In this document: in pieces, positions 531-37,346 of the stretch
How positions within the stretch are numbered: position 1 is the stretch's first letter
Layout of the letters: each line of letters opens with the position of its first letter
NCBI GenBank assembly: GCA_039619475.1
Contig: CM077115.1
Coordinates: forward strand, 499,617,352-499,681,351
Origin: Icerya purchasi
Taxonomy: Eukaryota; Arthropoda; Insecta; Hemiptera; Monophlebidae
DNA: 64,000 bases
Reading direction: 5' to 3'
Position numbers and translations under genes: made by a program
Notes under the pieces: generated by a model
Told to the model about the DNA's origin: nothing
Databases searched by the model: none
Seen by the model: only the letters and a program-made list of their open reading frames with translations

Positions 531-2400
531 TTTTTCATTTTTGGGCATGTCGGCTAAGAAAGTTTATCCAATCCAAAGGTGTATGCCAGCATTAATGATT
601 ATATAGGAAAAATATTAGAAATGGAGCATATAAATGCGCTAGCAAAGGACTAACCGAAAGAGAAGGAAAAGAAAGAATGCTGTAAGCACTGTAAGGCGCA
701 GGGAGGCCAAGACGCAAAAGACAAGAATACAGTATCACACGTTCTGAAGAAATAAAAGGACATTCAGGCAAAATGCGATTATTAATTTATTTTGCTACGT
801 TGTATAGAATAGTTCTGCCAAACTAAATGAAATATGTAAATTGTTTTTCACTTGAAAAGCCTATATTTATATATGTTCAGTCGTGTATCTGTAAGTATTG
901 AGGCGGTAAATGCGGGTAGAACTAATGATCAATAAGTTCTTTATTGATTAGATTTACCTCTATTGTGAACGAGACAAATCATTCTGAGTCCCTGTAGATT
1001 TTACCTTCTTTCGTCGAACAAATTAATTAACAGATTCTATAATTAGCTAACGAATGAAACGTTCGTTGAATTAGTAATTAAGAAAAATTTATACTAAAAT
1101 GATTTTCAGAATTAACTGTGTCAGATTTATGTATTCCTAATGTTTTCAAAGTGCATACAGCTTCCATCATCAAAATAACAATTAAAACAGAATAACATAA
1201 ATACGGTCGTATATACTTGTATTAAATAAAATATGAAATTACAATTAATATATTACAGATAAAGAATACAAAAAATATCAGTTTCGCTGACAATTAAAAA
1301 ATAGAATGCGGTTTGGTTAATTTCGTATCGCATATTTCTGAGTGCAGTAATGTAAATAACTGTTTTAATGTATACTATACTTTCGGTTTACCCGTAATTA
1401 CGAAATTATCGGAATTTACGAAACGTAATATAATAAAATAAACGTTTCAGGCAGCAAATCGACACTTTAAATTTTTGTTTTATAAGTACCAAATATGAAT
1501 TTCAGTTATTTTTTCTCAAGCAGGAATTTAAATAGAAATAATTTTTTTTCATATAGTTTTTTCATAGAATTTTTATATACATAAATGGTCTTTGGCAGAT
1601 ATTTTAGTTTTGGCTGTTGTATGTTCTATATGCTTTTTTCGCTTTTTGTATTTACTCAAGGAACCCTAATTTCTGTGGGTTTTTCAGATATTAAAGTTTT
1701 TCAGTTTCTATTTTTGTTTTTTATTTTTTTTCCGTTTTATTTATACTCTTAAATGACCGAAAAAGTTTGAAAAAATAATTTAAGTTCGTCTATTTTTAAA
1801 ATTTGCATTTGTTTCGAATTCCTCAGTTTTATTTTGTAATGTAAACTAGGCGTAAAAAAACAACTAAAAAATTACGTTTTGTATCATTTCAACGATCTGA
1901 ATACGTTTTACGTTTTGTGAGTGTATAGATTCGAATTTTACTTCCTGTTTACACATTTTCGATGAAAAACAATACTCCGAGTTTTATTTTAGATAGAAAT
2001 ACTGATAAAAATTTTCTAAACTAATATTATTATAAATACGTATATGTAAAGTTATTATTTACAAAATATATAATACAGTGAGAGTTTAGTGTGTACTTCA
2101 ATCTAATCGGCATCGTAACAAAAAACTAATGTAAACCTTTTTAAAACTTCTAAGTAGTATATACATACTGCGCATCTGTTGAAGGAATAACAATATAAAT
2201 TTTTTATTTTTGAGTACATCGGAACGCAAGAACTAGTTCATTATTTTCGGAAGAATAATGTAAAATTATCACTTGTCGGATACATATTCGATATTGAATT
2301 ACGAGTATCCCAGAATCCCGAAATGTTACACACAGTAGTACTGTTACCGATGTCGAAATGGACTGTATAATGTCAGCTGCGTAAACAAATTTACAGTTTG
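531..2400. other. AT-rich stretch without recognisable gene
   Basis: No reading frame with a recognisable domain, no tRNA-like structure and no clear terminal repeats were seen. The first 230 bases may still belong to the LINE remnant to the left, but I could not place them in its protein. The rest is low-complexity A/T sequence with short T runs. Confidence 0.5.
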
Positions 2401-2408
2401 TATACGTT

Positions 2409-2703
2409 CAAGGGCGTCGCCAGCCGATGAGCCAGGAAGGGGCAAGATGAGTTTCCAGCCGCCGGGGGGGGGGGGGGGGGCAAGATGATAGAAAGAAGAT
2501 ATGAGTTATAGGAAAAATAAAATTTATAAGTTGTAAAGGCTTAATATTTTATTAAACAAGAATAAAATCTTAATTAAAACATAAGTTTTCCAAATTTTCC
2601 ATGATTACGCACCTATGAATACTCATCAATGCCAGTTGATTAAAAAGTTTCAAGGCTCCAAGGGGGGGCTGCCCCTCCCTGTCCCCCGCTGGCGACGCCC
2701 ATG
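2409..2703. mobile_element. hAT-type MITE with perfect 8-bp target duplication
   Basis: A 295-bp non-coding element bounded by inverted repeats: the left end is CAAGGGCGTCGCCAGC, and the right end read on the opposite strand is CATGGGCGTCGCCAGC. It is flanked on both sides by the same 8 bases, TATACGTT (2401-2408 and 2704-2711). Ends starting with CA plus an 8-bp duplication are the hallmark of hAT-superfamily insertions. The interior has a run of about 18 G near 2463 and no coding capacity, so it must have been mobilised in trans. GC-rich ends contrast with an AT-rich core. Confidence 0.88.
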
Positions 2704-2711
2704 TATACGTT

Positions 2712-3704
2712 GTTCATGTAATGGTACATTAAAGAAGTAATTAAACATTATCGTGAATGGCGGCGTTTAAATGAGAATAAAGAGAACTAAAACGAAAAGG
2801 AAAAGTTACAATCGGTCGATGTGATAAAAAAAGAAAGACAGAATAGTAAAATAGTTAATACGTACACATAGTTAGATATATAAAATTGTGTTTATAAAAC
2901 AATCGATGTTTCTGATTTCAGTGAATTCCAGTAGTGTGTTGATATCATTTTTCATTTCACTGGCTGATCTGTTGGTACTACTGTTCTTTTTTTCTTGAGA
3001 ATTTTACCTTTTGTAGCGGAACCAGAGTTTTATGATAATACGGATCGTCCCCGAATGTAGCTCGATTTTAAGTATACATTTTTAGGATTGGTAATTGTGC
3101 AATTACAGTGCCATCAGTTGACAATTTTTAATGATTTCTTTATTATGGCGATAAAAAATCACATTATAAAAAGAAATACTCCGAAAACTATTACTCACGA
3201 ATCCTATATTATTAATACAATAAAAATGTTCACACATTATTGAAATACAAAGCAATTTACAACGGAAAATTTTCTGTTAAAACTATTGTTTGACAGAGAT
3301 ATAATTTTTGATGTTTTTTTTTTTTTTTTTTTTATTTGTTTATTATATTATATTCAAAAATAATTTGTTTTTCGGTTTAATTCTTCGAGGTATTTTAAGC
3401 CCAAAAATACAGCGGAAATAGTAAAAAAACTGAGTGAATTTGATATGCCAACAATCGTTATAAATTGGCGCTGAAAAATGGAAAATTTCTTTACGTGTGC
3501 TGCAGTCAAATTGCATTCGATTACTAACCTTGTAAACTTATACTCAAAATCGAGCTATATTCTCGGATAAGCGTCGTTGAAAGCATACCTCCCGGGCCTG
3601 CTCGTCACTACTGTAAAGGTAGTTTTTCCCAATTCCTACAGAGAGCGTATACGTCATTATGCAGAATATCAATATGTAAGAAATCAACAATGTTGTAACT
3701 AACG
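2712..3704. other. AT-rich stretch without recognisable gene
   Basis: No coding signal or terminal repeats were recognised. It contains an 18-T tract near 3315. Confidence 0.5.
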
Positions 3705-3712
3705 TAGTTGTA

Positions 3713-5699
3713 CAAAGGCGCACTCAGGATTTTTTTTTTTGGTCAGGGCTAGAATTTAGAAGATGAGTTAGAGGGTGGAAACTCAGTAACTCGACTAAGT
3801 ACCTATCTATTTCCGTGGTCTGTAAATTACAGTAAAAAAAAAATACAATATTAACGAATTTTATTTTTTAAAAAATTATAAAACTAACGAATTTTATTTA
3901 AAAAATAATAATAATAATAATAGAAACGTAACATCATGTTTGTAATAAGCACAAATTAGGTAAGCATACGAATTTTATTACAAAAAAATTAGGTAAAGGT
4001 ATATTATACTTGTAATATAAGCAAAAAGTAAATATGTTTGTTTTTTAAAAAAAATTAAGTAAAACCAGACATTACAAAACGAAATTAAGTTTTCGAGGAT
4101 TTTTTACAAAGATATCTAATACCTCGTCGGCAATTATAATTATTTCATGGTGTATATTCAATATCGAAAGTCTATTAAGACGAACTTGACCAATGTGATT
4201 TCGCAAATACGTCTTCAATCTTCTCAACGTCGAGAATGATCTTTCTGCGGTGGCCGTAGTATTTGGGATGGTGCAGAGGATGCGTAAGAGTGTATTTACA
4301 CGGCCAAATATGCATAGCGTTTTTTGGAATTGAAATATCTTGATTGGAACCACAAAATTTGATGTACCACAGCTGAATACCTAACTTTAACGACGATTCC
4401 GAGTATTGGGGAAGGTTTTTTGAGTAAAATCAACAAAATTCCAGAAATTGCTTCATTCGATTTTGATCGATTGGTAGTCCGGTAGGAAATAGACAAGAAA
4501 AACTGGAAAGAATAGTTTTATGCTTTAAAAAACGTGCATTGAATTGTTGGATAAACATGTCTACCCAAGGCATATAAATATTGGAATGAAAATATTCGTC
4601 TGTATTTTCTGCTGAAACGTTACTTCTCGTAGTTTGCTGAGTAGTTGGGCGAGGAAATTCGATCATAATATTCAACCTTTGCGCAGTATTTTGAACAGTT
4701 TGAAATATTTCTGCAAAACACGCTTCAGCATTTTCTCTTTCAGTCATAACTCTGTTCGTATTGCAATTTTAGCCAAATCAACAACTTTCGATAAATCCGA
4801 ATCTTTTTCTTCTAACTTTTGGCTCAAAGGTAAAATATAACTAAGCAGCTTTTCGCCATAGTAGAGATATTATAAATTCCGATCGAATTATAAAAACAAT
4901 AGGAACTACTTGAGGAATCTCTATCATCCCATTTCGAGATCTATTCAAGGGAAACAATAATTGGGTGAAATAACTGAACGAATACTAAAGTAGCATCGTG
5001 TCGCTCGACTCATCTAGTTGGACCTAGTTCTTTTAGATATTTTTGTTCAAAAAATACGGCTATCTTTCCCACTACAGCGATGCATGAATTGAAAGAATTT
5101 CAACGGCATCCGAAACCGCAAGATTCAGACTATATGACATGCAATGGACGTAAATCGCGGTCGGATATTCTTCAGATATAATGGCTTGAACGCCATTAAA
5201 CTTACTACTCATGGTAGCTGCTCCATCATATCCTTGGCCACGAATATTATTAGGATCGATGTTATACTTGTGCAAAGTTGACAGAATCGCGTCAGCCATA
5301 TTTCTACCGGTTTGCTCCACGATTTTTGTAAAGAAATTATTTTTTTCGCAAATGGAGTATTTAGCACCCTGAAAAGGACTATTTCAATAAAATAATTACG
5401 AAATTCAGATTTTAAAGAAAGGTTAAAATACGGGGGATGCGCAACAAAGTTGGCAACGGAAAAAACAAATAATACACATGATAAACAAAAACAACAACAA
5501 AGAACGGACTTACTCATCAATACTAAATACAACCCAACGAAGGAACGTAAAACAAAATTATTTTACATTTCTACATCGAATTCATTTCCTTTTTTCTGTA
5601 CTATCCCGCTTTACGCTACAAAATTAATTTTGGAAACAATTTTGGAGATTTTTTGGGGGGAGCAATGGCCCCGTGGTACCCGCCTTGAGTGCGCCAATG
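3713..5699 (-). mobile_element. Decayed hAT transposon (long copy)
   Basis: A 1,987-bp element with inverted ends: left CAAAGGCGCACTCAGGA, and right (opposite strand) CATTGGCGCACTCAAGG. Flanking 8-mers TAGTTGTA (3705-3712) and CAGTTGTA (5700-5707) differ at one base, consistent with an old hAT 8-bp target duplication. The transposase remnant lies inside on the minus strand, so the 5' end is at the right. The same ends, and the subterminal sequence next to them, recur in the shorter copy at 20577-21264, which supports the boundaries independently. The N-terminal part of the transposase gene appears deleted. Confidence 0.88.
4072..5340 (-). pseudogene. hAT transposase remnant (DUF4371/ZMYM1-like)
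   Basis: The transposase would have bound the element's ends and cut and pasted it. What remains, in N-to-C order, is a catalytic-core piece around 5072-5320 containing IRGQGYDGAATMSS (the D of YDGA matches the hAT catalytic aspartate) and IYVHCMSYSLNLAVSDAV; then a helical insertion region at 4430-4747 with EYFHSNIYMPWVDMFIQQF; then the C-terminal hAT dimerisation segment at 4072-4353 with TTATAERSFSTLRRLKTYLR, whose AERSFS carries the usual third acidic residue. The pieces lie in different frames with stops between them. The N-terminal zinc-finger half is missing, so the copy is dead. Full relatives are usually 600-800 residues. Confidence 0.87.
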
Positions 5700-5707
5700 C
5701 AGTTGTA

Positions 5708-6534
5708 CGTCGTAATGATTTGTGAAAAAGATTATTGTCCGTGTAAACATCGACGTAAATGTAATTAATCGGCTTTTGAAAACAATTTCTTTGGCGTAAT
5801 TATAAATTGTTTAATTGTATAGTAAAATTGGTGAAAACGAGATTAGATGAAAGTATCGGAAGTTAAAATGTTTCGCAATACGAAATAAACTATAAAAAAA
5901 AAAAAAGTAACTGTATTCCACCGAAAATGTTTGAAAGCAAAAAAATTTGTAACTTTTTGGTATAGCAATGATGGGATAATGATTTTTTAATTTTTGAAAA
6001 ATAATACATTTCTTATTTTTTGTTAAAATACGAATATTACTCGCACAAAGAATTTATCTTAAGGACAAACTTTTGTTTCTATATGCGATTTCGCTGCTAT
6101 GGGTATCGAAATATTACTTCATAAGATATGTTATTCTGCAATCGCATTCGATTACAGTTTTTCTTACAGCGGATGTGCGATATAATATATTCTGGAACCG
6201 GAAAATGCTCAGGTTGCATTCTTATATTTTTATAGAGGGGGAAATGTTCGAGAAGGCAACTCTCTATTCGAACGCTTTAGAATATGTTAGACGTTCTACA
6301 TTACTCGTATGACACTAACGTAAGTATTGAAAATTATAGGAAAATTGATAAATTTCAATTTGGACGAAAATTATATTATTTGGAACAACGGCGTTGATAG
6401 GAGAAGGAAGGGGGTAGGGGTAATTATAATGATGAAATATGAAGATGCTAGTGCGATATTTACAAAACGTGAATATACATATATGGGAATTTGTAAGAAT
6501 ATACACGATTATATTTAATATTTTATACCGGAAC
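5708..6534. other. Intergenic, downstream of the receptor gene
   Basis: No domain-bearing frame was recognised. Short open frames (for example 6073-6312 on plus) have no familiar motifs and AT-driven composition. Confidence 0.45.
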
Positions 6535-6540
6535 TTTATT
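6535..6540 (-). promoter_or_regulatory. Candidate polyadenylation signal of the receptor gene
   Basis: AATAAA on the minus strand (TTTATT on plus), about 280 bases beyond the receptor stop codon. It is the first canonical hexamer I found downstream; the spacing fits a short 3' UTR, but such hexamers are frequent by chance in this AT-rich DNA. Confidence 0.35.
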
Positions 6541-6821
6541 AAGAAAATACTAAAAAAAAAAAAAAGTGTCGGTAGTTAGAACGGTATTTTAAAAATCGTA
6601 ACGGAGTCTAACTTGAAAAACCCCTTTGGTACGTTACGGATCTGGAAAAGAAGAAGGCAAAAAGGAAAAAGACGGTCTGAGGGGATATGTACAGTTGGAA
6701 TTGTTTACTTTTGAATAAATGAATTTCGGGTTCGTTTTTTACGGGATTTTCGTTGCAATTTGCTACCTGAAAACGAGTAATAGGAGTCGATGTAGCGATC
6801 GGGAAAGTTGGTTAGTAAACG

Positions 6822-7958
6822 TCAAGTGTTGTCGCCGTTGCTGATGGTTACCTGGTGCGTCAGAACTGAGTTTGCGTACCGAAACGAAACGCTGTTGGCA
6901 CGCGTAGAAGTGTTATCTATGCTGATGGTTCGTTGGTGTTTCCAGCAGATGAACAGGTGACGGTTGAAATACTTTCGGAATACACCGCTAATGAAGTAAA
7001 GCGCGATCGGATTTATGCACGAATTGATGAAACTTAGACAAAACGCCAGTATACGGAAAGAGCTCCAGAATTCGTCGTAATCGCTCTCGGATGACGGATG
7101 CAGATGGAACCAGAGCATGAATACGTGATACGGCAGGAAGCACACCATGAACATGATGACGAAACATAGGACCATTTTGGCCACCTTCTTCCTGGCCCTT
7201 ATTTGCGCTGATTGCCCTTGTATTTCTCCCGGTATATTTCTCGTGGTCATTTCTAAATGCTTCGCCATCATAATATAGAAGCAGGCTATCACGCTTAACG
7301 GCACCGCGTAATAGGTGAGAAATTTGAAAAGCACCACGCCTTTTCGATAAGCTCGCCCGTAAATTTCCGGAAACGGCCAACAGTAGAGGATTTCTTGTCC
7401 GTCTGTTAATTTGGTCGATTCTAAATGTGAGAAGACGACAGAGGGCAGCGACAGAATTATGGCCACTATCCAGATGGCTATCGCAATGGCTATGGTGAAC
7501 GGCTTAGAGGAGATGCGTCTTCGTATCGGGTTCGATATGGCGCAGTACCGTTCGGCGCTTAAGGCAGTCAGCGTGAATACCGAGACCCCGATCGAGATGT
7601 CTTTGGTAAATTCGGACACTTTGCATATAAACAGTCCGTACGGCCACGATTCGAACGTGTACATAGTCGACGTGAAGGGAACGCAGGTGAGAATTAGCAG
7701 GAGATCGCCGAGTGCTAAACTGATTATGTACGTGTTCGGTACGTTTCTCATGTTGCGATGTCGAGCAAATATGATTATAAGCGTTCCGTTGCCCAGTACT
7801 CCGACCAAGAAAATTATCGCGAAAAGTATCGGTACCATGTACGTTTCGATTCGCTGATGATACGGAATATAAACTTCACTGTCGTTGCTCGCACAAGAAA
7901 TATTCTGCATTTCGAGTGAACTTTGCCCATCTATCGGGTTTTCGTTTTCTTTATACAT
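6822..7958 (-). CDS. CCHaR: CCHamide neuropeptide receptor (class A GPCR)
   Basis: Plasma-membrane receptor predicted to bind a secreted CCHamide peptide and signal through G proteins. The 378-residue protein has seven hydrophobic helices: TM1 with GNGT (N57), TM2 LALGD (D85), disulfide cysteines C112 and C193, ERY (136-138) after TM3, and FLPYH (274-278) in TM6. TM7 carries NPIALY (316-321), a spacing typical of bombesin-like receptors. Then come helix 8 FRKYFN, a palmitoylation candidate C338 and a Ser/Thr-rich tail. NIPGEIQG before TM6 and RNVPNTYIISLAL in TM2 are close to insect CCHamide receptors. The extracellular N-terminus has glycosylation sites N19 and N25. I chose the ATG at 7958 because a good splice acceptor lies 16 bases upstream; the open frame extends to 8036 but that part reads as intron. 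CCHa1-R versus CCHa2-R cannot be decided. The whole coding region is in one exon, with no breaks. Confidence 0.88.
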   Translation of the reverse strand: MYKENENPIDGQSSLEMQNISCASNDSEVYIPYHQRIETYMVPILFAIIFLVGVLGNGTLIIIFARHRNMRNVPNTYIISLALGDLLLILTCVPFTSTMYTFESWPYGLFICKVSEFTKDISIGVSVFTLTALSAERYCAISNPIRRRISSKPFTIAIAIAIWIVAIILSLPSVVFSHLESTKLTDGQEILYCWPFPEIYGRAYRKGVVLFKFLTYYAVPLSVIACFYIMMAKHLEMTTRNIPGEIQGQSAQIRARKKVAKMVLCFVIMFMVCFLPYHVFMLWFHLHPSSESDYDEFWSSFRILAFCLSFINSCINPIALYFISGVFRKYFNRHLFICWKHQRTISIDNTSTRANSVSFRYANSVLTHQVTISNGDNT

Positions 7959-7973
7959 GGTTGTTTTTCTGTC

Positions 7974-8003
7974 CTGAAAATGAAAAACAAGATGGAAAAG
8001 ATG
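7974..8003 (-). other. Splice acceptor before the receptor coding exon
   Basis: Reading the minus strand, a pyrimidine-rich tract ends in TTTTCAG at 7974, and the exon starts at 7973 with GACAGAAAAACAACC before the ATG. This implies at least one upstream, probably non-coding, 5' exon not identified in the window. Confidence 0.6.
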
Positions 8004-10773
8004 TATTAGTATTTTCAAGGATAATTTTTTTTCCAATTATTTTTTTGGGGGGATTTAATATTATCATTTTTTTTTTCCGGTTCAGGTTTTATTTCATTTT
8101 TGCCTTTACTTTTTGTTTTTTTTTTTTTATATTCGGGTAAAATGAAGAAGTTTTTTAAATTCCATCGGAAGTATCAGTAACCTCATTTAACTATTGTTAA
8201 ATTTAGAGAAATATCGCTATGTAAATCTGAAAAAGGTTAAAATAAGCAATGTTGACACAGAATTAATTTTGATTCGTAATTTCACGGCAAATGCAATAAT
8301 GATCTTTGAATACAAATATATATATATATATGTTGAAGATGTAAATTGGATACATTTTTTTTCATTATTAGTCCGAAAAAGCTGTAATTAAATAAAATTC
8401 TTACAGTTGAGGAAGCAGTTTTATATCAAGATTTTTCGAACTTGCAACAGGTTTTTTAAAGCTATTTTTTCAGATAATTTCGATTATCTGCAGTAATTTC
8501 AAGTTTTAAATTAGAGTCTCCACTGTCATTTTATTCAGCTATAAATATGATTACTCAACTGTATTAAAACTAGTAGTAGTATTTAAACGTTTCTGGTAAC
8601 TGGTGTATTGCCGACATTATGCAAGTATATGCATTGTATGAGTTTATCTTTTTTGAAAATAAACAATTATTTTGATATATGCGTCTAACACATAACTGTT
8701 AAAAAGCGCAATGAATCGTCCATATTGTAATTATGACTAAGTAAGTAAATAATATGCAATAATTATTACACATTCAAGAAATCCTGTGTAATATATTCCT
8801 CGACATTGGTGTATGTTAATCGTAAGATTCGGTAAAATCGTCCGAAAATAGTATTGAGATTAACGGCACGTAATTTTCTGATAATTATGTCGATTAATTT
8901 AAATTTAAAAGCTCATATCACTTTTATGAAAACGTAATTTTTCATGAGTTCTCCGAAGTATTTGTCTTAATATTTAAACGACACGAAGTTTTTTAATTTA
9001 AAAAAGTTCTTAATTAGTTTTATTTTTATAAAGTTTCGTAATTTACTAGAATGACGTAAACTCTGAACTACTGCTACGTCGAGTTACCCGGAACGGTATT
9101 AATATCAGGCTGAGCGAGTAACAGGATATTTGTTGTAGATAAATTTTATAAAAAGTGGTAAACAAAAATATGTACTATATTTTAAATTTAGTAATTTTAA
9201 AATATAAAATTATTGTCGTAGAGTTGTTAGTGTATACTACTCAAATTCAAACTGAACTTTTGAAATATTACAAACACCGCGATTGTAAGGTTTTTAAGTA
9301 TAAAGCGTCTCTTCAGATTAATTTGTTAGTTGACTTTTTTCCAGTGCTTAAAAAGAATAATTACCATTTACACAGGTGTAAACCGTAAATTGTTAGTGAG
9401 TCGCAAAACAGTTATATCAATTAAGGAATTTGTAATATGCAGTGCGATTTTTCAACGCAGTCGCGGTAACTGAGAAAAAGCATTTAAGATTTAAATGAAA
9501 GTTTAAGAAAATTATATAATATTTGTTTTCTATAAATCGATCGGTTGAAGAAGTTTCGTCCTCGTTTGATGCATAAATACTTCGCAGATACGAAATAAAC
9601 GAAATAGAGCCTAAAGTGATGAAAAATTACACTGTAATCCCAATAAATGAAAATGTGGCGGTGTTACAGCCACCGAATTGTATTTATTATAAATTAATCA
9701 GTATGCTGAAATACGATAAATGAGCAAACAAAAATGATGGTTAAGCTGATAGAAATAAAAATACCGTAAATGTATTGGGTGGTATTACTGTAATACGGTG
9801 ACAGTTCTTAAGTGGTTAATGAAAAAAACGGCGACTGCTGACTGTGATTTTCCAATAGTTTAGTTGAGAAGCCCTCGCTGGCGAAAAAGAGGTAGGAATT
9901 ATAACGAGGTTTACGAAGATAATATTAGCCACTTGATAGGCGAAGTGTGATTTTCTGTTCGGTAGATTAATTATTCACATCGGTGTATGAAAATTTTATA
10001 GATATTAGGGAGTCGATCAAGTTAGTCTTAACGTTTAGGTTTACGAATTAGTCGTTTGTGGCGCTATCTCTTTTATTAAATAGGCGACGAAATAAATATA
10101 TACTGTACTGTTTTTAGTTGTGATAATTGTAATTTCGCTCACGTATAGATTGACGAAGCTTTATCGGAAGGTTAGAGTGTGTGTGTGCATCGTGAGAAAA
10201 TATAGCTTTAAGCTCGAGTACACTGCTCGTGGGACAATAGGCTATGCGTATAGAGACGTATGCACATCATTAGATAAAAGGCACAGGTAGCGAAAAGTTC
10301 GGTTTACCGTGATTTACTGTTGAACAACGTCGATAAGGGGTAGCGAACGAACGAGATTGGATGAAATATATGTCGGTCTTCGTGTCGTATTAAGATTTTA
10401 GTTTTAATCGCTGGCTGCCCTGCAAGATATAGTGGAATGTATTATTCCGGTACACTTTGCTCGGTCCATATTACGACATGTGACGTAGTTTTATGTGTAA
10501 TAATACGAATTCCGTGGTATATTCGTCCGGTAAATTTAATAACTCATTCTGTAGTTCACTCTGAGAACAGCAACTGTTTAGATGCGTAATAGTCAAAAAT
10601 TAAAAAGAAAAATATTAAACATTATTAAAAGTTTGATTACTGAAAAAAAAAACAACTTAAAAATAATCATATTTGAAAAATAGGAAGCAATTTAATTAAT
10701 TGTGTAAATTACCAAAGAATCTAGCTTGGTTTATTGTTTTTCTAGCAAGGTACAGTGTAATGAATTTGAACTA
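8004..10773. other. Gene-free AT-rich DNA, probably intron or 5' flank of the receptor
   Basis: No coding domain was recognised on either strand. Given the acceptor at 7974 on the minus strand, part of this stretch is probably intron of the receptor gene. I could not find the upstream exon. Confidence 0.45.
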
Positions 10774-16700: not shown

Positions 16701-17837
16701 ACGTAGTTATATCGTCAGTGGTGGCTGCTCGAATTTTACTAATAAATGGTTAAGAATTAGATTTATTATATTTGTTCTTTCTTCCCGTAACCGCACTTTT
16801 AAATGATAAGATTTTAAAAAAACTCTTTAAAAACTGTTAAATTCAGTTACAAACGTTATATTTTTATTATTATACAAACATAAATGCGTTCAATTTACAC
16901 AAAATATATAACATCAATTATAAAACTTATTACACGTAAAACATTAAAAATTAAAAAAATCTTCGGTAATGAAGTGATGGGGATTTCTTTGGCTCGGGTT
17001 GCCGTCTCTTCTCACTTCTTCTTTAAAAATTCCCATCGTCTAATCTACTTCCGCTGTGCAAAGGTTTTCATCTCAGATTATGGTATCGGATATGTACCGT
17101 TTCCTCTTTCCCTAACAATTGTTCTTTCTATCCGTCTGTCCAACCTAGTCTTCCTGCCAATCCGTGGTTCTCTTTGTTTCCTTCACTTCATCGTTCGGTT
17201 GTTGTCTCCGTTATTCGTCTGCGTTCTTAAGCCATCGATTATCTTTCTCTCGTTTTCGTTTTCGTTTGGTTGTCTCTCCATATTGTCCTCTTCACTCAAA
17301 CGAAGAGCATGTTCGCCATGCGGACCATTAGTTTATTAAGTGTTAATTTATTTCTGCTGAGTGTTCTGCTTTCTACTTCAGTTTGCTGAGATTTGGTCTT
17401 CCTACTCTATATTGCGCCTCTTATGTCCTAAATTTTCCCGCGCCACACATTGTTCCTATTATCTGTTCTTCTTTCTCCTAACAATATCTGACCGTATCAA
17501 GATATAATTGATTTCTTTCTATTCTAATTGTTTCTGGGTAAAGGTGCCCGGTTGAAAGGCCCAAAAAAAAGGAAAAAAAAAGAGCTATAAAACACTGATC
17601 GTCGTCTACGTTTTCAGACAGCCATTCCATTATTTGTTTATTCGATAATAATAAAGTAACAAAAAAAAACAAAACAGCTAGGTATAACACTATTATTAAA
17701 ACATCCAAACTATATTCCCGAGCAGTAACTTAAACAAATAAAAAAACAACAAAACAAAAACGAAAAAAACAAATATAAGAAATCGAACAAAAAAATTGAA
17801 AAAAGTTGTGTAATGCCACAGTGGTCACCTGAAAAAT
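13736..17837. other. Long gene-free stretch
   Basis: About 4 kb with no recognisable domain. A 151-codon open frame at 16884-17339 (plus) is low-complexity Ser/Leu/Phe-rich and unrecognised. Parts around 14.4-15.4 kb are somewhat richer in G and C than their neighbours but show no coding frame. Confidence 0.45.
15004..15052. repeat. Short inverted repeat CGTCTGCAGG / CCTGCAGACG
   Basis: Perfect 10-bp arms (15004-15013 and 15043-15052) separated by 29 bases, with a further A/T base-pair extension around a one-base bulge. It could form a cruciform; no terminal duplication was seen. Confidence 0.75.
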
Positions 17838-32198: not shown

Positions 32199-32401
32199 TT
32201 AAATGTAGATTCGGTCAGCTATTGATAAGATAAAAGAACTGAGGATAGGAACAACGGAGATCGACGGAAACGATAACATATACGGGGCACAATAAGGAGT
32301 AGAGAGTTTGAGTGATAACAGATTGGAGTACAAAGAAGTGCGTTCATTCACGAGGGATGGACATTCAAAGAAGATATGGTCAGGATCACAGACGACTTTC
32401 G
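32199..32401 (-). pseudogene. LINE RNase-H/zinc-finger region, distal half (split by Transib)
   Basis: Minus-strand translation gives KVVCDPDHIFFECPSLVNER, matching the C-x-x-DxxHxFFECP zinc-binding segment after RNase H in insect LINEs, followed by a Leu/Ser-rich tail. The left part of this LINE is at 35452-35610 on the same strand (SLRRSVIIPIIHLRLNHTLL, then LSPCCPLHSD). Removing the 3,050-bp element between them restores the normal order of the zinc-finger region (cysteines of CCPLHSD followed by CDPDH), showing that one LINE was interrupted. Confidence 0.75.
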
Positions 32402-32440
32402 CACAATGGGGTATTTTCGCAATCTGGGCGGCCAAAATTA
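32402..32440 (+). repeat. Transib left terminal repeat with RSS-like layout
   Basis: Heptamer CACAATG (32402-32408), then a 23-nt spacer (32409-32431), then CCAAAATTA at the nonamer position (32432-32440). The RAG recombination signal is CACAGTG, a 12- or 23-bp spacer, and ACAAAAACC. Confidence 0.75.
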
Positions 32441-32706
32441 TTTTATCATTTTAATCCATATTTTTAATGTTAATACATAATATTATAGACTTATTAGGAA
32501 TAAAAATAGGTATATCATAAAAAATCTGTTTCTTTGTTGTAATAATTGTTGCTTATTTTATACTATCTCGAACTCCTATACAAGTATATGGTGTAGATTT
32601 TGTTCGTTAACTAATGAATACACACGTGATAGGTTTTTGTACATTTTTTATTACTACTTTTTCATATTAAGAACCAGGCGGAATAAAATAATATATTTTG
32701 TTAATT

Positions 32707-35179
32707 TCAAGGCGAAGTGTTCCATGGTTCTTCGCCTTCGTCTGTGAAATCTGATTCCTCATCCGATAATTCATCGTCAGATAGAGCACTTTTGAAAGGC
32801 TCAGCTGGAAGCAGCATGGCTATCGTTTCTTTCAAAAAACGCTCGTTTTTTTTTCTTTGGTATTGGTCTCGTTCCTGTTATAACCGGATCTGAACTCAGG
32901 AGTAGTCTGTTTAGCACATCCATATTGCAGGCTACTCTTGAAAATTTCCTTGCAAAATTTTGTCGGTATAATCTGATGTATTTATTTCTTGCTTCTGCAG
33001 CTTCTTCTGACAACTGGCCAATTGGTAGTAACGCCTCTTCTATCACTTCTGGCCCATATATTAATATCTTATGCAAAGTTGGTGTAAAGATTTACCTACA
33101 GTTCTGCCGTCTCCTTTGCATAAGCTGAAAACTTTTCTTTGTTGATCTTATGTCTACTCGCTAGTGTTTCTAAATTTACTTTCAGGCGGTATATAAAATT
33201 GACGTCAATATTCGTAATATCTGCAGCCAATTTGTGGTGTCTAAAAAACCTTCGACTGTTGTTGCCGTCATTAGTGTTCCCGAAATTAGCTTTTGGTATA
33301 TCCACGATGAGGCCCATCTTTATTCGGAAATCCTCTTGGATTTTTAACTTCTTCTCTTTTACTATCTCTTTATCATTATCCGTTCTCAATTGCCACTTTT
33401 TAACGGGTAACTTGTAAGAAATATGCAGAATCATTTAAAAAAAAACGGATTCTAGCATGTAAAAGTGATAGACCGAAATCAAGGGCTTCCGGATTAACTG
33501 GCTGCTTTACTTCTAAACTATTAAAATCCTCGGAAGTCAAGTCGCAAATGTAGCATCTCATTGTTAATGATGTGTTGGTGGCAGCATTACAAATTTTTCC
33601 GTCTATCATTGTAAGCATTATTAAGTGCTTTACTGAATATGTTTTAGCTCCTAACTTTACTTCGGTATTTTGTAATTTATTTGCAGCATTTTAAATATAA
33701 CTGATTTCCTCTTTTGTAACATCTGTGGTTTCCTCGATAAATCTTAACCTAATAGAACGGCAATAACGCGGTGAAGAGGGAGTTGGATTCTGCCAAAGTA
33801 TCTTATTATTTGTGGAGCAAATAAGTTGGAGATGCACAAAAGAACTTTGAAATAAGTTTGTATCAGAGTTGAAATCGTTCTCAAATTTTTGTTTGTATTG
33901 AGCTTGCTGTGTCCCATCACAACCTCACTTGCACATTAATACTAATGCGCTACGCTCTTCTTTGTTAGAAGGTAATGTTTCTTCCACGTAAGTCAATAAT
34001 CGCGTAACCGTATGATGCACTAAACTCTGCAATTTAATTTCTACATACGTTTTAGTTACCCGGTATGAATGCTTTTCTGGGTAGCACTCTTGCTTTGCTT
34101 TCTGTAGAATACTATAGCATGGGTACATTATTTTATTTGTGCTTCTTACTATTTCGTACTGTTTTCTTGAAAGATCAGCTTCCGCAAACATGGATAAAGC
34201 CTGCGTAGGAGTAAGTTGTCTAGCCGTGGTGTGTTTATCATGGGAAAACGCCTTTTTATATTTGGTAGCTCTTCCCCTACTCTCATTAGTGCCGTTGGGC
34301 TTAGTATATTGTGAACCTTAACTTCACAATCCCGACGCCCTGTCAAGGGTATGGAACTCACTTTACTTTTTTACTTACTTAGCTCTTGTTGGTGTTGCGG
34401 TGATTTATTTCAGTACGAACGAGGCATCTCTTTTCCCACCTTCACCTAACTTTGATTGAGTGGCATGAGTGATCTAACTCGATATTTTTGCGCAAGTGTT
34501 CAGTTTTCTGTCTTTTGCTCCTTTCACTCGATTCAGCAAATAATTTATTTGGTCGCAATACTATTTTTGATACTCTTGGAATATTAAAAGTGTCCTCTAG
34601 CCACTCCTTACTTTTTTTGAGAAAGGTATGTTCTTTTCTGAGAGCTTCAGCCCATCGTTTTTTAATATCAGCTTCAAAACGAGAAAAATCGTGCTTTACT
34701 TTTTTTCTTATGAGTATTCATCCATTTGAAGTAAGTGTTTTTCCAAAAGATCCAATTTTTTGTTAATATCACTTAAATTTGCTTGTTGCATAATAGTGAA
34801 TAAGTAATTTTGAGTTACAACTCTGACTTCTGCTGATTCTATAACAAAAAATAAACTACTCGGAGTAAAGAGTGAAATTTTTTAATTTTGTAAACTTATT
34901 TTTAGCGTTCTTGAATAAACTATATCAATAAAAACTGTAAAAATCCGCAAAAAAAAATACATGTATTACAAAAATTGTTAGCTTTTCATGAATACCAAAA
35001 TTTATGCCGGGTATTGCCCGGAAGTATAACCAAAAGCTTCAAGAATAAAACTCACTGTGAAAAAATAATATTAAAAAATATCAATTATTCAAAAACACTT
35101 TATGTAGTCAGTTTTCGGATTACAGATTTAATGAAATTAAATAAAAACGGACTTACTTACCCGCTCTATCATAATCCAT
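32707..35179 (-). pseudogene. Transib/RAG1-like transposase pseudogene
   Basis: RAG1-family DDE recombinase of about 700 residues that would cut at the element's own ends. Seen in order: MQQANLSDINKKLDLLEKHL; MFAEADLSRKQYEIV; CDGTQQAQYKQKF (D codon 33916-33918, position of RAG1 D600); MLTMIDGKICNAATN (D codon 33601-33603, position of D708); zinc pair CYIC; FGLSLLHARIRFF; KMGLIVDIPKANFGNTNDG; HKILIYGPEVIEEALLPIG; then LSEEAAEARNK (second-last E, codon 32993-32995, position of E962); FARKFSRVACNMDVLNRLLL; and an acidic tail ending EEPWNTSP at 32707. Family assignment comes from alignment by eye to RAG1 core. Damage: an in-frame TGA at 33925-33927 where tryptophan is expected, frameshifts at A-runs near 33430 and 32850, and others near 33090 and 34300. 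A first exon at 35161-35179 is likely. Confidence 0.82.
34839..35160 (-). other. Probable intron in the Transib transposase gene
   Basis: On the minus strand a donor CGG|GTAAGTAAG at 35160 and an acceptor TTTTTTGTTATAG|AAT ending at 34839 delimit 322 bases. The upstream exon, ATG GAT TAT GAT AGA GCG G (35179-35161), joins in frame to exon 2, with no stop before MQQANLSD. This suggests a two-exon transposase with start MDYDRA. Confidence 0.5.
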
Positions 35180-35412
35180 GTTTTTCACGTGGCACAATTC
35201 ACAAGAAAAGATAATATTATATGTCCAATATAAGCTAACGCGTAGAAGAACAAAAGATTATACGTGCACTCAAAATAACTATCAACTTCAGACTGACCAC
35301 AGCAGGAAGAAATTTAGGTAAGATTGAGAAATGTATTATATTGTGTATTCCGGGAATATCTAGCTTTCTGAGAATCATTGGTTTTCCCACCTGGGTTAAA
35401 TTCTAGAAAATT

Positions 35413-35451
35413 GACTTTTGGCTGCCCAGATTGTTAAAATACCCCAATGTG
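35413..35451 (-). repeat. Transib right terminal repeat with RSS-like layout
   Basis: Read on the minus strand: heptamer CACATTG (35451-35445), a 23-nt spacer, then CCAAAAGTC at the nonamer position (35421-35413). CCAAAA falls at the same distance as in the left end. Confidence 0.75.
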
Positions 35452-35610
35452 CGTTGTCAGAATGAAGAGGGCAACAAGGGGATAAAGCGAAATGAAAAGG
35501 ATGACGTGAAGAAGGAAGAAGAGTATGATTCAGACGTAAATGGATAATAGGGATAATAACGGAGCGGCGAAGCGAAGGAAAATCGTGAAACCAAGGCCGC
35601 GTGTCCTTTC
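35452..35610 (-). pseudogene. LINE RNase-H/zinc-finger region, proximal half (split by Transib)
   Basis: Minus-strand translation reads PWFHDFPSLRRSVIIPIIHL, RLNHTLL and then LSPCCPLHSD before the element border. This matches the R-x-x-x-x-x-x-RLR-x-x-H-x-x-LP...C-x-x-C region of I/R1-type LINEs. It is the upstream half of the fragment at 32199-32401. At about 35610 it abuts another LINE fragment in the opposite orientation. Confidence 0.7.
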
Positions 35611-36170: not shown

Positions 36171-36737
36171 GGCTTCGGTCCTGATAGCGCGTACTGGTTT
36201 CCGTAAAGCGTGACATGAGGGGCGCTATTTTATTCATCCTTAGTCCGGAGAGAAGTATACTCACGAGAAATCGGCATTCCTTGATGCGGTCTATTACCCT
36301 CTCGGATGGATCAAAATTAGATAATAATTTTTTATTTATTTACATATAACTTTTTAAGGAAAAAATGTTGCATTCTGATCATGTCCTCATCAAACAATTC
36401 TGATGTACTCGAATATATTTTCATTTGAAGACAATTTATATTATTTATCACGATGTTGTCCGACTAACTTTTTTTAGGCATTTTTCTCCAAAACTGTTTT
36501 GTTTTCTCTTGCCATGGTTTCTCCGCATCGCAATGTCCCGACACTATACGAGATAATATTTGTAATGTTTTAAACGCCAGAATATTGCTCCAACTTTTTC
36601 ACGTTTTCTTTCAGACGCACGGAATGAACATTCTCATCAGTACCTATTATTATATTTACCGAATAGAGATATACATATATTTCATTTTTCCTTTCATTTT
36701 TATCTCAGTAAAAATTTATTACCGCTGGCTTAATTAT
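36171..36737. other. No gene recognised
   Basis: Spacer between two LINE remnants. The first 51 codons of the open frame starting at 36585 do not resemble LINE protein and are taken as chance extension. Confidence 0.45.
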
Positions 36738-37346
36738 CTAGAAGCCATATCCAGCCCTAAAACAAGAAATACAATAAGCACTCAAATTCTTCGTATGATC
36801 ATCGACATACAAAAGTCCGAGGGCCAGGTGACGTTTATGTGGGTCCCTGGTCACGCAGGAATACGAGGGAATGAACAAGCGAACGCAATGGCACAATCAG
36901 CACTACGAGCTCCGCAGAACAGATACTCGCCTCCCCCTTCATCCATGGCACAATTCTTTCTAGCGATAAGCAAACAAGAATGGAAGGGACAATGGACCGC
37001 CTGTCAGACTTTTCTGGCCCAGGTAAAGACAACGATCGAGCCATGGTGGCCTCCAACAAATTGTTCCCGCAGAGAATTCAGTATAATCAGCCGACTGCGG
37101 ACAGGCCACACCGCAATCTCGCACGACCACCTTCTAAATGGGACATCTCCACCAACACAGTGCCCTTTCTGTATGGGAAATTTCATGCCAACCGTTCAAC
37201 ACTTATTAATAGAATGCACAGCATTCCTATCAACTAAGAAACTCTTAACATATAAAACACTTCCCGATATGCTATCAAACACCCAAACAGCAATAGATTC
37301 CGTCATTAATTTTCTTAACATAAACAGGATAGCTAAAACTATATAA
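36738..37346 (+). pseudogene. 5'-truncated LINE: RNase H and CCHC C-terminus, frame intact
   Basis: About 202 uninterrupted codons to a natural stop: LEAISSPKTRNTISTQIL, VTFMWVPGHAGIRGNEQANA (RNase H, with N where the GNExAD catalytic D is usual), ISRLRTGHTAISHDHLL, and the zinc-binding CPFCMGNFMPTVQHLLIEC (C-x2-C-x9-H-x4-C). RT and endonuclease are absent, so this is a dead 5'-truncated insertion although its remaining frame is clean. It is followed by a short 3' UTR and a pure A35 tract (37424-37458), which looks like a preserved poly(A) tail and implies a comparatively recent insertion. Confidence 0.83.

Follow-up and report, generated by a model that had tools for sequence, protein, structure and literature searches.

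Positions 32402-35451 of a stretch of Icerya purchasi DNA hold a dead, decayed copy of an autonomous Transib, a cut-and-paste DNA transposon, whose two ends resemble the 23-spacer form of the vertebrate recombination signal sequence (RSS). The stretch analysed, hereafter the window, is 64,000 nt long (GenBank assembly GCA_039619475.1, contig CM077115.1, positions 499,617,352 to 499,681,351 of the forward strand). The copy combines a D/D/E transposase, terminal inverted repeats that start with CAC in an RSS-like heptamer, and a 5-bp GC-rich target-site duplication, which together place it among the Transibs. We put at roughly 85% the probability that it is best explained as an autonomous element, now decayed, whose RAG1-core-like DDE transposase would have bound its ends bipartitely and chosen CGNCG-like targets.

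Read inward, the left end consists of CACAATG, the 23-nt spacer GGGTATTTTCGCAATCTGGGCGG and CCAAAA, and the right end of CACATTG, the 23-nt spacer GGGTATTTTAACAATCTGGGCAG and CCAAAA, both exactly. An earlier note on this DNA, made by reading the letters, had described this arrangement at both ends, and the inverted ends indeed have 32402 and 35451 as their exact outer positions. The two ends are identical at 32 of the first 36 positions; beyond the first 37, identity drops to 6/23. Inverted matches of this quality are expected by chance about 3e-7 times per 5 kb at the same composition. With ends of 23/23, the window copy does not display the 12/23 asymmetry. Its length is made up of a 2936-bp element, a 106-bp insert and the 8-bp repeat of that insert.

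The 2936 bp are occupied mostly by the transposase gene; no search aimed at RAG2 was made. Gene pieces at 33096-33434 and 33925-34317 match the solved HzTransib transposase (E 1.2e-7 and 1e-22), and the gene piece of a sibling copy does so at E 5.4e-39, with RAG1-like proteins next best. The window copy still shows all three active-site codons, D, D and E (Table 1); the HzTransib residue numbers D126, D225 and E436 are taken from excerpts of PMC6941560. A protein profile built from 50 relatives and searched against the PDB placed HzTransib first (3.3e-161), amphioxus RAG1L second (2.1e-10) and vertebrate RAG1 third (1.4e-6 to 4.4e-4); nothing else in the PDB fell below E 0.7, and no other transposase superfamily was found by sequence. 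These matches bear out the identification of the gene as a RAG1-like transposase of Transib type. The matches to HzTransib and RAG1 also refute the idea that a different superfamily (e.g. piggyBac, Merlin or hAT) acquired CAC ends by accident, and the 5-bp CGNCG duplications speak against it too; we give it practically no credence. Single-sequence searches were a poorer guide. One sibling piece used as the only query gave RAG1L at 0.001 and RAG1 at 0.5-1.7, with an unrelated myoglobin between them at 0.18; Pfam RAG1 matches lay under the curated cut-off (15.4 vs 25 bits), and another gene piece weakly matched DUF790 (0.0028). Since RAG1 scored no better there than the unrelated myoglobin, and Pfam stayed below its cut-off, the link to RAG1 from single sequences was dropped and is drawn from the profile search and the fold comparison. 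The copy is dead, as had been proposed: stops interrupt every matched stretch of the gene, and the 106-bp insert with its 8-bp repeat lies inside.

The relatives contain more than the catalytic part. In the 50-relative profile the HzTransib match begins only at position 170, and an AlphaFold2 model of the closest relative, P0001 (predicted local distance difference test, pLDDT, 83; predicted template modelling score, pTM, 0.67), predicts a helical region upstream of the HzTransib-matching part. In VIA-align comparisons HzTransib aligns from model residue 166 (HzTransib residue 21), and in 12 of 30 rows for vertebrate RAG1 the alignment extends back to model residues 91-103 (mouse RAG1 391 onward). 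Model residues 90-92 are a GRP that is conserved among the relatives. The predicted region may thus correspond to the nonamer-binding domain (NBD) of RAG1, with which it aligns suggestively and which is missing from the solved HzTransib chain. Excerpts of PMC9435367 report that Transibs have a GRP-bearing equivalent of the NBD.

Copies related to the window element were sought throughout the host genome (1.10 Gb, 41 contigs). Its family, F1, is small and old, with DNA matches of 83-93% (40 of 2388 candidates scored, mostly the 106-bp repeat). Thirteen ends from nine copies were sampled. The earlier note had considered that other copies might end at different positions; the heptamer is in place with at most one change in 8 of the 13 ends, in three the heptamer has decayed and the inner repeat persists, and two (L009 right, L010 right) break off internally. 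The spacer measures 23 in 9 of 11 usable ends, the two others being 15 (L009 left) and 26 (L013 right). The RSS heptamer CACAGTG stands at two of six left ends in F1, and two more copies have CATAGTG and CCCAGTG. Because two other copies carry CACAGTG, the CACAATG of the window is probably a decayed form of the family heptamer. A genome pattern scan with the family heptamer returned five matches, against none in the reversed control. Separately, a long insert at ~4024-8728 splits the Transib copy in L009; it contains two open frames, of 991 and 463 residues, and looks like an intact or nearly intact non-long-terminal-repeat (non-LTR) retroelement.

The same architecture recurs outside this family. 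A protein search with P0001 gave 82 genome matches, from which 30 loci were cut out, and at least six further families. F2, read in 13 copies of ~1.75 kb, has ends of the form CACTATG-23-CCAAAA, the spacer being 23 at 12/13 left and 10/13 right ends; its target-site duplications are identical 5-mers in 10 of the 13 copies, share four of five bases in two, and 0/5 in one. F3 shows a spacer of 23 in L030 and has lost the box at the L033 end; pattern rows at C1:567213622 and 567215732, each with a spacer of 23, resemble the two ends of another F3 copy. F5 has 23 at four of five ends (one at 20) and F6 at five of nine, and CACAGTG is also the heptamer of F3 and F6. F4 is represented by a single end with heptamer CACTATG and TCAAAA at 23, F7 by a single end with TCAAAA at both 12 and 23. 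Two broken-off ends excluded, the seven families combined have a spacer of 23 in 43 of 55 ends inspected (22/26 in F2, 21/29 in the others). The proposal that the window's family keeps an RSS-like end architecture is thereby strengthened, as six other families share CAC, the 23-nt spacer and CAAAA. The F2 copies (L034, L035, L037-L040, L042, L043, L045, L049-L052) are themselves non-autonomous: they are 83-97% alike, have clean CGNCG duplications, and their amplified unit contains no more of the transposase gene than its C-terminal third.

Comparison between families separates the signals from the spacer. In six representatives (F1-F6), CAC, G7, G9, ATTT (12-15) and CAAAA (32-36) are identical in 6/6, positions 16-28 agree in at most 4/6, and F7 fits the same pattern. 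Seven divergent families in one genome thus form a natural test of constraint, in which constraint falls on CAC, ATTT, CAAAA and the 23-nt distance and leaves the middle of the spacer free. The spacing could instead be common by descent only, if all seven families stemmed from one recent ancestor in this host and the 23 nt were never under selection. GGGTATTT and GG-CCAAAA are indeed recognisably homologous across families; yet the representatives share just 35-62% amino-acid identity (differing in 38-65% of residues), their spacer middles are unrelated in sequence, and the spacing losses of single copies (15, 20, 26) look like private decay. In a FastTree phylogeny, only rough because the fragments are decayed, the seven families form no single clade and interleave with beetle and moth proteins. 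We therefore consider common descent as the sole cause improbable.

Several observations weigh against an RSS-like, bipartite signal. The likeness of the nonamer is modest on the window element alone: at spacer 23 it agrees with ACAAAAACC at 5/9 positions on the left and 6/9 on the right, with the CAAAA core in register, and 7.8% of the 9-mers of the whole window reach or exceed 5/9 and 2.2% reach or exceed 6/9; support for the nonamer thus comes from the other families. Of these, F4 and F7 are each represented by a single end, their second ends not being found (for F4, in a small stretch), and 12 of the 55 ends lack a spacer of 23. A genome scan for TGGGGTATTT, 6-24 free bases and CCAAAA gave 92 matches vs 77 in a reversed control that is known by its total only. 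That total proves little, and the length distribution is what counts: 65 of the 92 have a spacer of 23 (51 F2-like, 14 other), and the remaining 27 fall on ten further lengths, of which 14 is the most frequent with 8 matches. As to the domain, the RAG1 rows that reach the NBD come from whole-chain alignments with root-mean-square deviations of 5.3-7.2 Å, larger than most rows that do not, so that the match is no more than suggestive; searched on its own, a profile of the N-terminal piece found no RAG1 in the PDB (best, MetJ at 0.62), and the GRP stretch scores -2.9 bits against RAG1 in the profile alignment. Finally, inside families the spacer is about as well conserved as the signals. F1 left ends retain 38/42 heptamer, 122/138 spacer and 54/54 nonamer positions, F1 right ends 29/35, 110/115 and 41/45, and F2 is similar.

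The last point bears on a Transib that has no bipartite signal, in which the core alone reads a continuous 36-nt site and the RSS likeness is a chance run of A. Conservation of the whole 36 nt between both ends and inside families is what such a site predicts. Between families, however, 13 nt (16-28) vary in sequence and not in length, with CAAAA staying in place, and the relatives carry a predicted extra domain at the position of the RAG1 NBD that the HzTransib chain lacks. We regard the continuous site as unlikely, though deserving of attention. The bipartite pattern is visible only between families, since inside them the spacer varies no more than the signals do. In the conservation check suggested in the earlier note, the signals are constant and the spacer middle varies between families; within families the spacer does not stand out.

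For the bipartite signal, a mechanism can be outlined. A live element would have encoded, in its presumably single gene, a RAG1-core-like DDE transposase, two molecules of which would bind the two ends bipartitely. The catalytic core would sit on the CAC heptamer and the adjoining GGGTATTT block, and the N-terminal NBD-like domain on CCAAAA, about three helical turns inward. We infer that this domain reads the A box; its hold on CCAAAA would explain why the distance is fixed. The element would be cut out at the heptamer and pasted into CGNCG-like sites, leaving 5-bp duplications. Excerpts of PMC6941560, PMC7204232 and PMC8355894 describe Transib chemistry as a nick at the heptamer, a hairpin on the flank and pasting with a 5-bp stagger.

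In three families the ends hold a second A box. F2, F6 and F7 have one at spacing 12, 11 nt from the box at 23 (at the F2 right end at 11, by best match). These families form no supported clade in the tree, F2 and F6 joining with a support of 0.109 and F7 lying elsewhere. In F6 the box at 12 is present in eight of nine ends, and the ninth, which has gained a 2-nt insert, has it at 14; the second box is at 23 in five ends, at 25 in one, decayed (shifted to 24) in two, and missing only at the left end of L026. This copy (1117-3292; C2:119703365-119705542) has CACAGTG, 12 nt and CCAAAA on the left and CACAGTG, 23 nt and CCAAAA on the right. Its left end lacks the 11 nt between the boxes and so makes it look like a 12/23 pair. 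Its duplication, TAGCG/CAGCG as judged by eye, would fit a deletion that preceded the insertion as well as one that followed it. A 12/23 asymmetry as a trait of F6 was considered and rejected once four sister copies had been found and their ends read; as no other end is without the second box, the asymmetry is private to one copy. An 11-nt deletion between the boxes converts a 23-type into a 12-type end, and L026 is an exact example. That some Transib ends are two nested RSS-like signals, with one heptamer and A boxes at 12 (or 11) and 23, one helical turn apart, is a doubtful proposal, which we offer as speculation. If the transposase did use either box, the 12/23 pair of antibody genes could stem from a symmetric double-boxed end by a single slip. 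A literature search of papers outside subscription, available in part, turned up no description of this host or of double-boxed ends. The families supply end sequences ready for use, and those with two boxes would suggest a concrete route to 12/23 asymmetry.

The insertion site can be compared with an empty one. L051 holds an uninterrupted paralogue of the joined flanks (242/295 identical, 82%) with the junction GGCTT-CGTCG-TCAGG; in the window the element is preceded by GACTT-TCG and followed by CGTTG-TCAGA. The target CGTCG thus appears to have been duplicated, the left copy having lost 2 nt (3/5 bases left) and the right copy having changed once (4/5). The loss on the left is a conjecture because three extra nucleotides remain, not five. 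The coordinates of the element and its parts are collected in Table 1.

Table 1. Features of the Transib copy and its target site in the window.
Feature	Position	Strand	Details and evidence
Left terminal inverted repeat	32402..32437	+	Heptamer CACAATG 32402-32408, spacer 32409-32431, CCAAAA 32432-32437; same terminus in other copies
Right terminal inverted repeat, inward reading	35416..35451	-	Heptamer CACATTG 35445-35451, spacer 35422-35444, CCAAAA 35416-35421
Transib transposase pseudogene, several frames	32801..34815	-	HzTransib matches; aligns with relative P0001 (residues 2-546), interrupted by stops; Pfam RAG1 E 0.005 (below cut-off)
First catalytic D codon (GCDGT)	33916..33918	-	Aligns with HzTransib D126
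Second catalytic D codon (MIDGK)	33601..33603	-	Aligns with HzTransib D225
Catalytic E codon (EEAAEARNK)	32993..32995	-	Aligns with HzTransib E436
LRPNK, decayed GRP motif of presumed NBD	34544..34558	-	GRP in 12/12 relatives typed; family copies L010 and L013 have GRPNK
106-bp insert, high-copy repeat, in gene	34274..34379	.	8-bp repeat TAGCTCTT at 34266-34273 and 34380-34387
Left target-site duplication remnant TCG (target CGTCG)	32399..32401	.	Empty-site paralogue in L051; 2-nt loss inferred
Right target-site duplication CGTTG (CGTCG with one base altered)	35452..35456	.	Empty-site paralogue comparison

The 106-bp repeat within the gene has tens of near-identical genome copies among the matches listed, is without a terminal inverted repeat, and gave no Rfam or tRNA match. 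It is younger than the Transib element. The element in turn sits inside a fragment of a non-LTR retroelement. Ends of non-LTR reverse transcriptases with the CDPDHIFFECP motif occur at 32199-32396 and 35457-35608 (minus strand), and near 637-780 and 17275-17512. A 292-residue open frame at 36468-37346 (plus strand) resembles the end of the RNase H family in its residues 101-145 (E 6.5e-6) and is probably another non-LTR remnant.

Transibs are known relatives of the recombinase of antibody genes, and their RSS-like ends are one argument that V(D)J recombination arose from a transposon. Such ends have been published, so that the kind is known; seven families in one host with a spacer of 23 are additional data. 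Kapitonov and Jurka reportedly described fruit fly and mosquito Transib families with RSS-like ends in 2005, and the element resembles these in its RSS-like heptamer, spacer, A-rich box, presumably single gene and 5-bp duplications. According to excerpts of PMC6941560, RAG-like consensus heptamers and nonamers occur in some Transib signals, where the length of the spacer differs from case to case. Symmetric spacers of 20-22 in some published Transibs and 12/23 pairs in a few are given in excerpts of PMC8355894; here, by contrast, the families for which both ends were seen (F1, F2, F5, F6) have a 23/23 consensus. Hztransib of Helicoverpa zea (PDB 6pqn, 6pqx) differs in that its solved chain starts at model residue 146-166, without the NBD-like stretch, and its ends have little or no nonamer in what PMC8289069 states in excerpt. 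The joint absence of domain and nonamer fits the idea that the NBD-like domain reads CCAAAA, as a two-case comparison that is no proof. The vertebrate 23-RSS and RAG1 are approached in the CACAGTG heptamer (F1 left, F3, F6), the spacer of 23, CAAAA in register, a RAG1-like core and a predicted NBD-like domain; unlike the vertebrate RSS, no family has a 12/23 pair as a trait, and the nonamer agrees at only 5-6 of 9 positions. Amphioxus ProtoRAG shares 5-bp GC-rich duplications and, in excerpts of PMC8289069, the heptamer CACTATG, identical to that of F2 and F4, but has spacers of 27/31 and both a RAG1-like and a RAG2-like gene.
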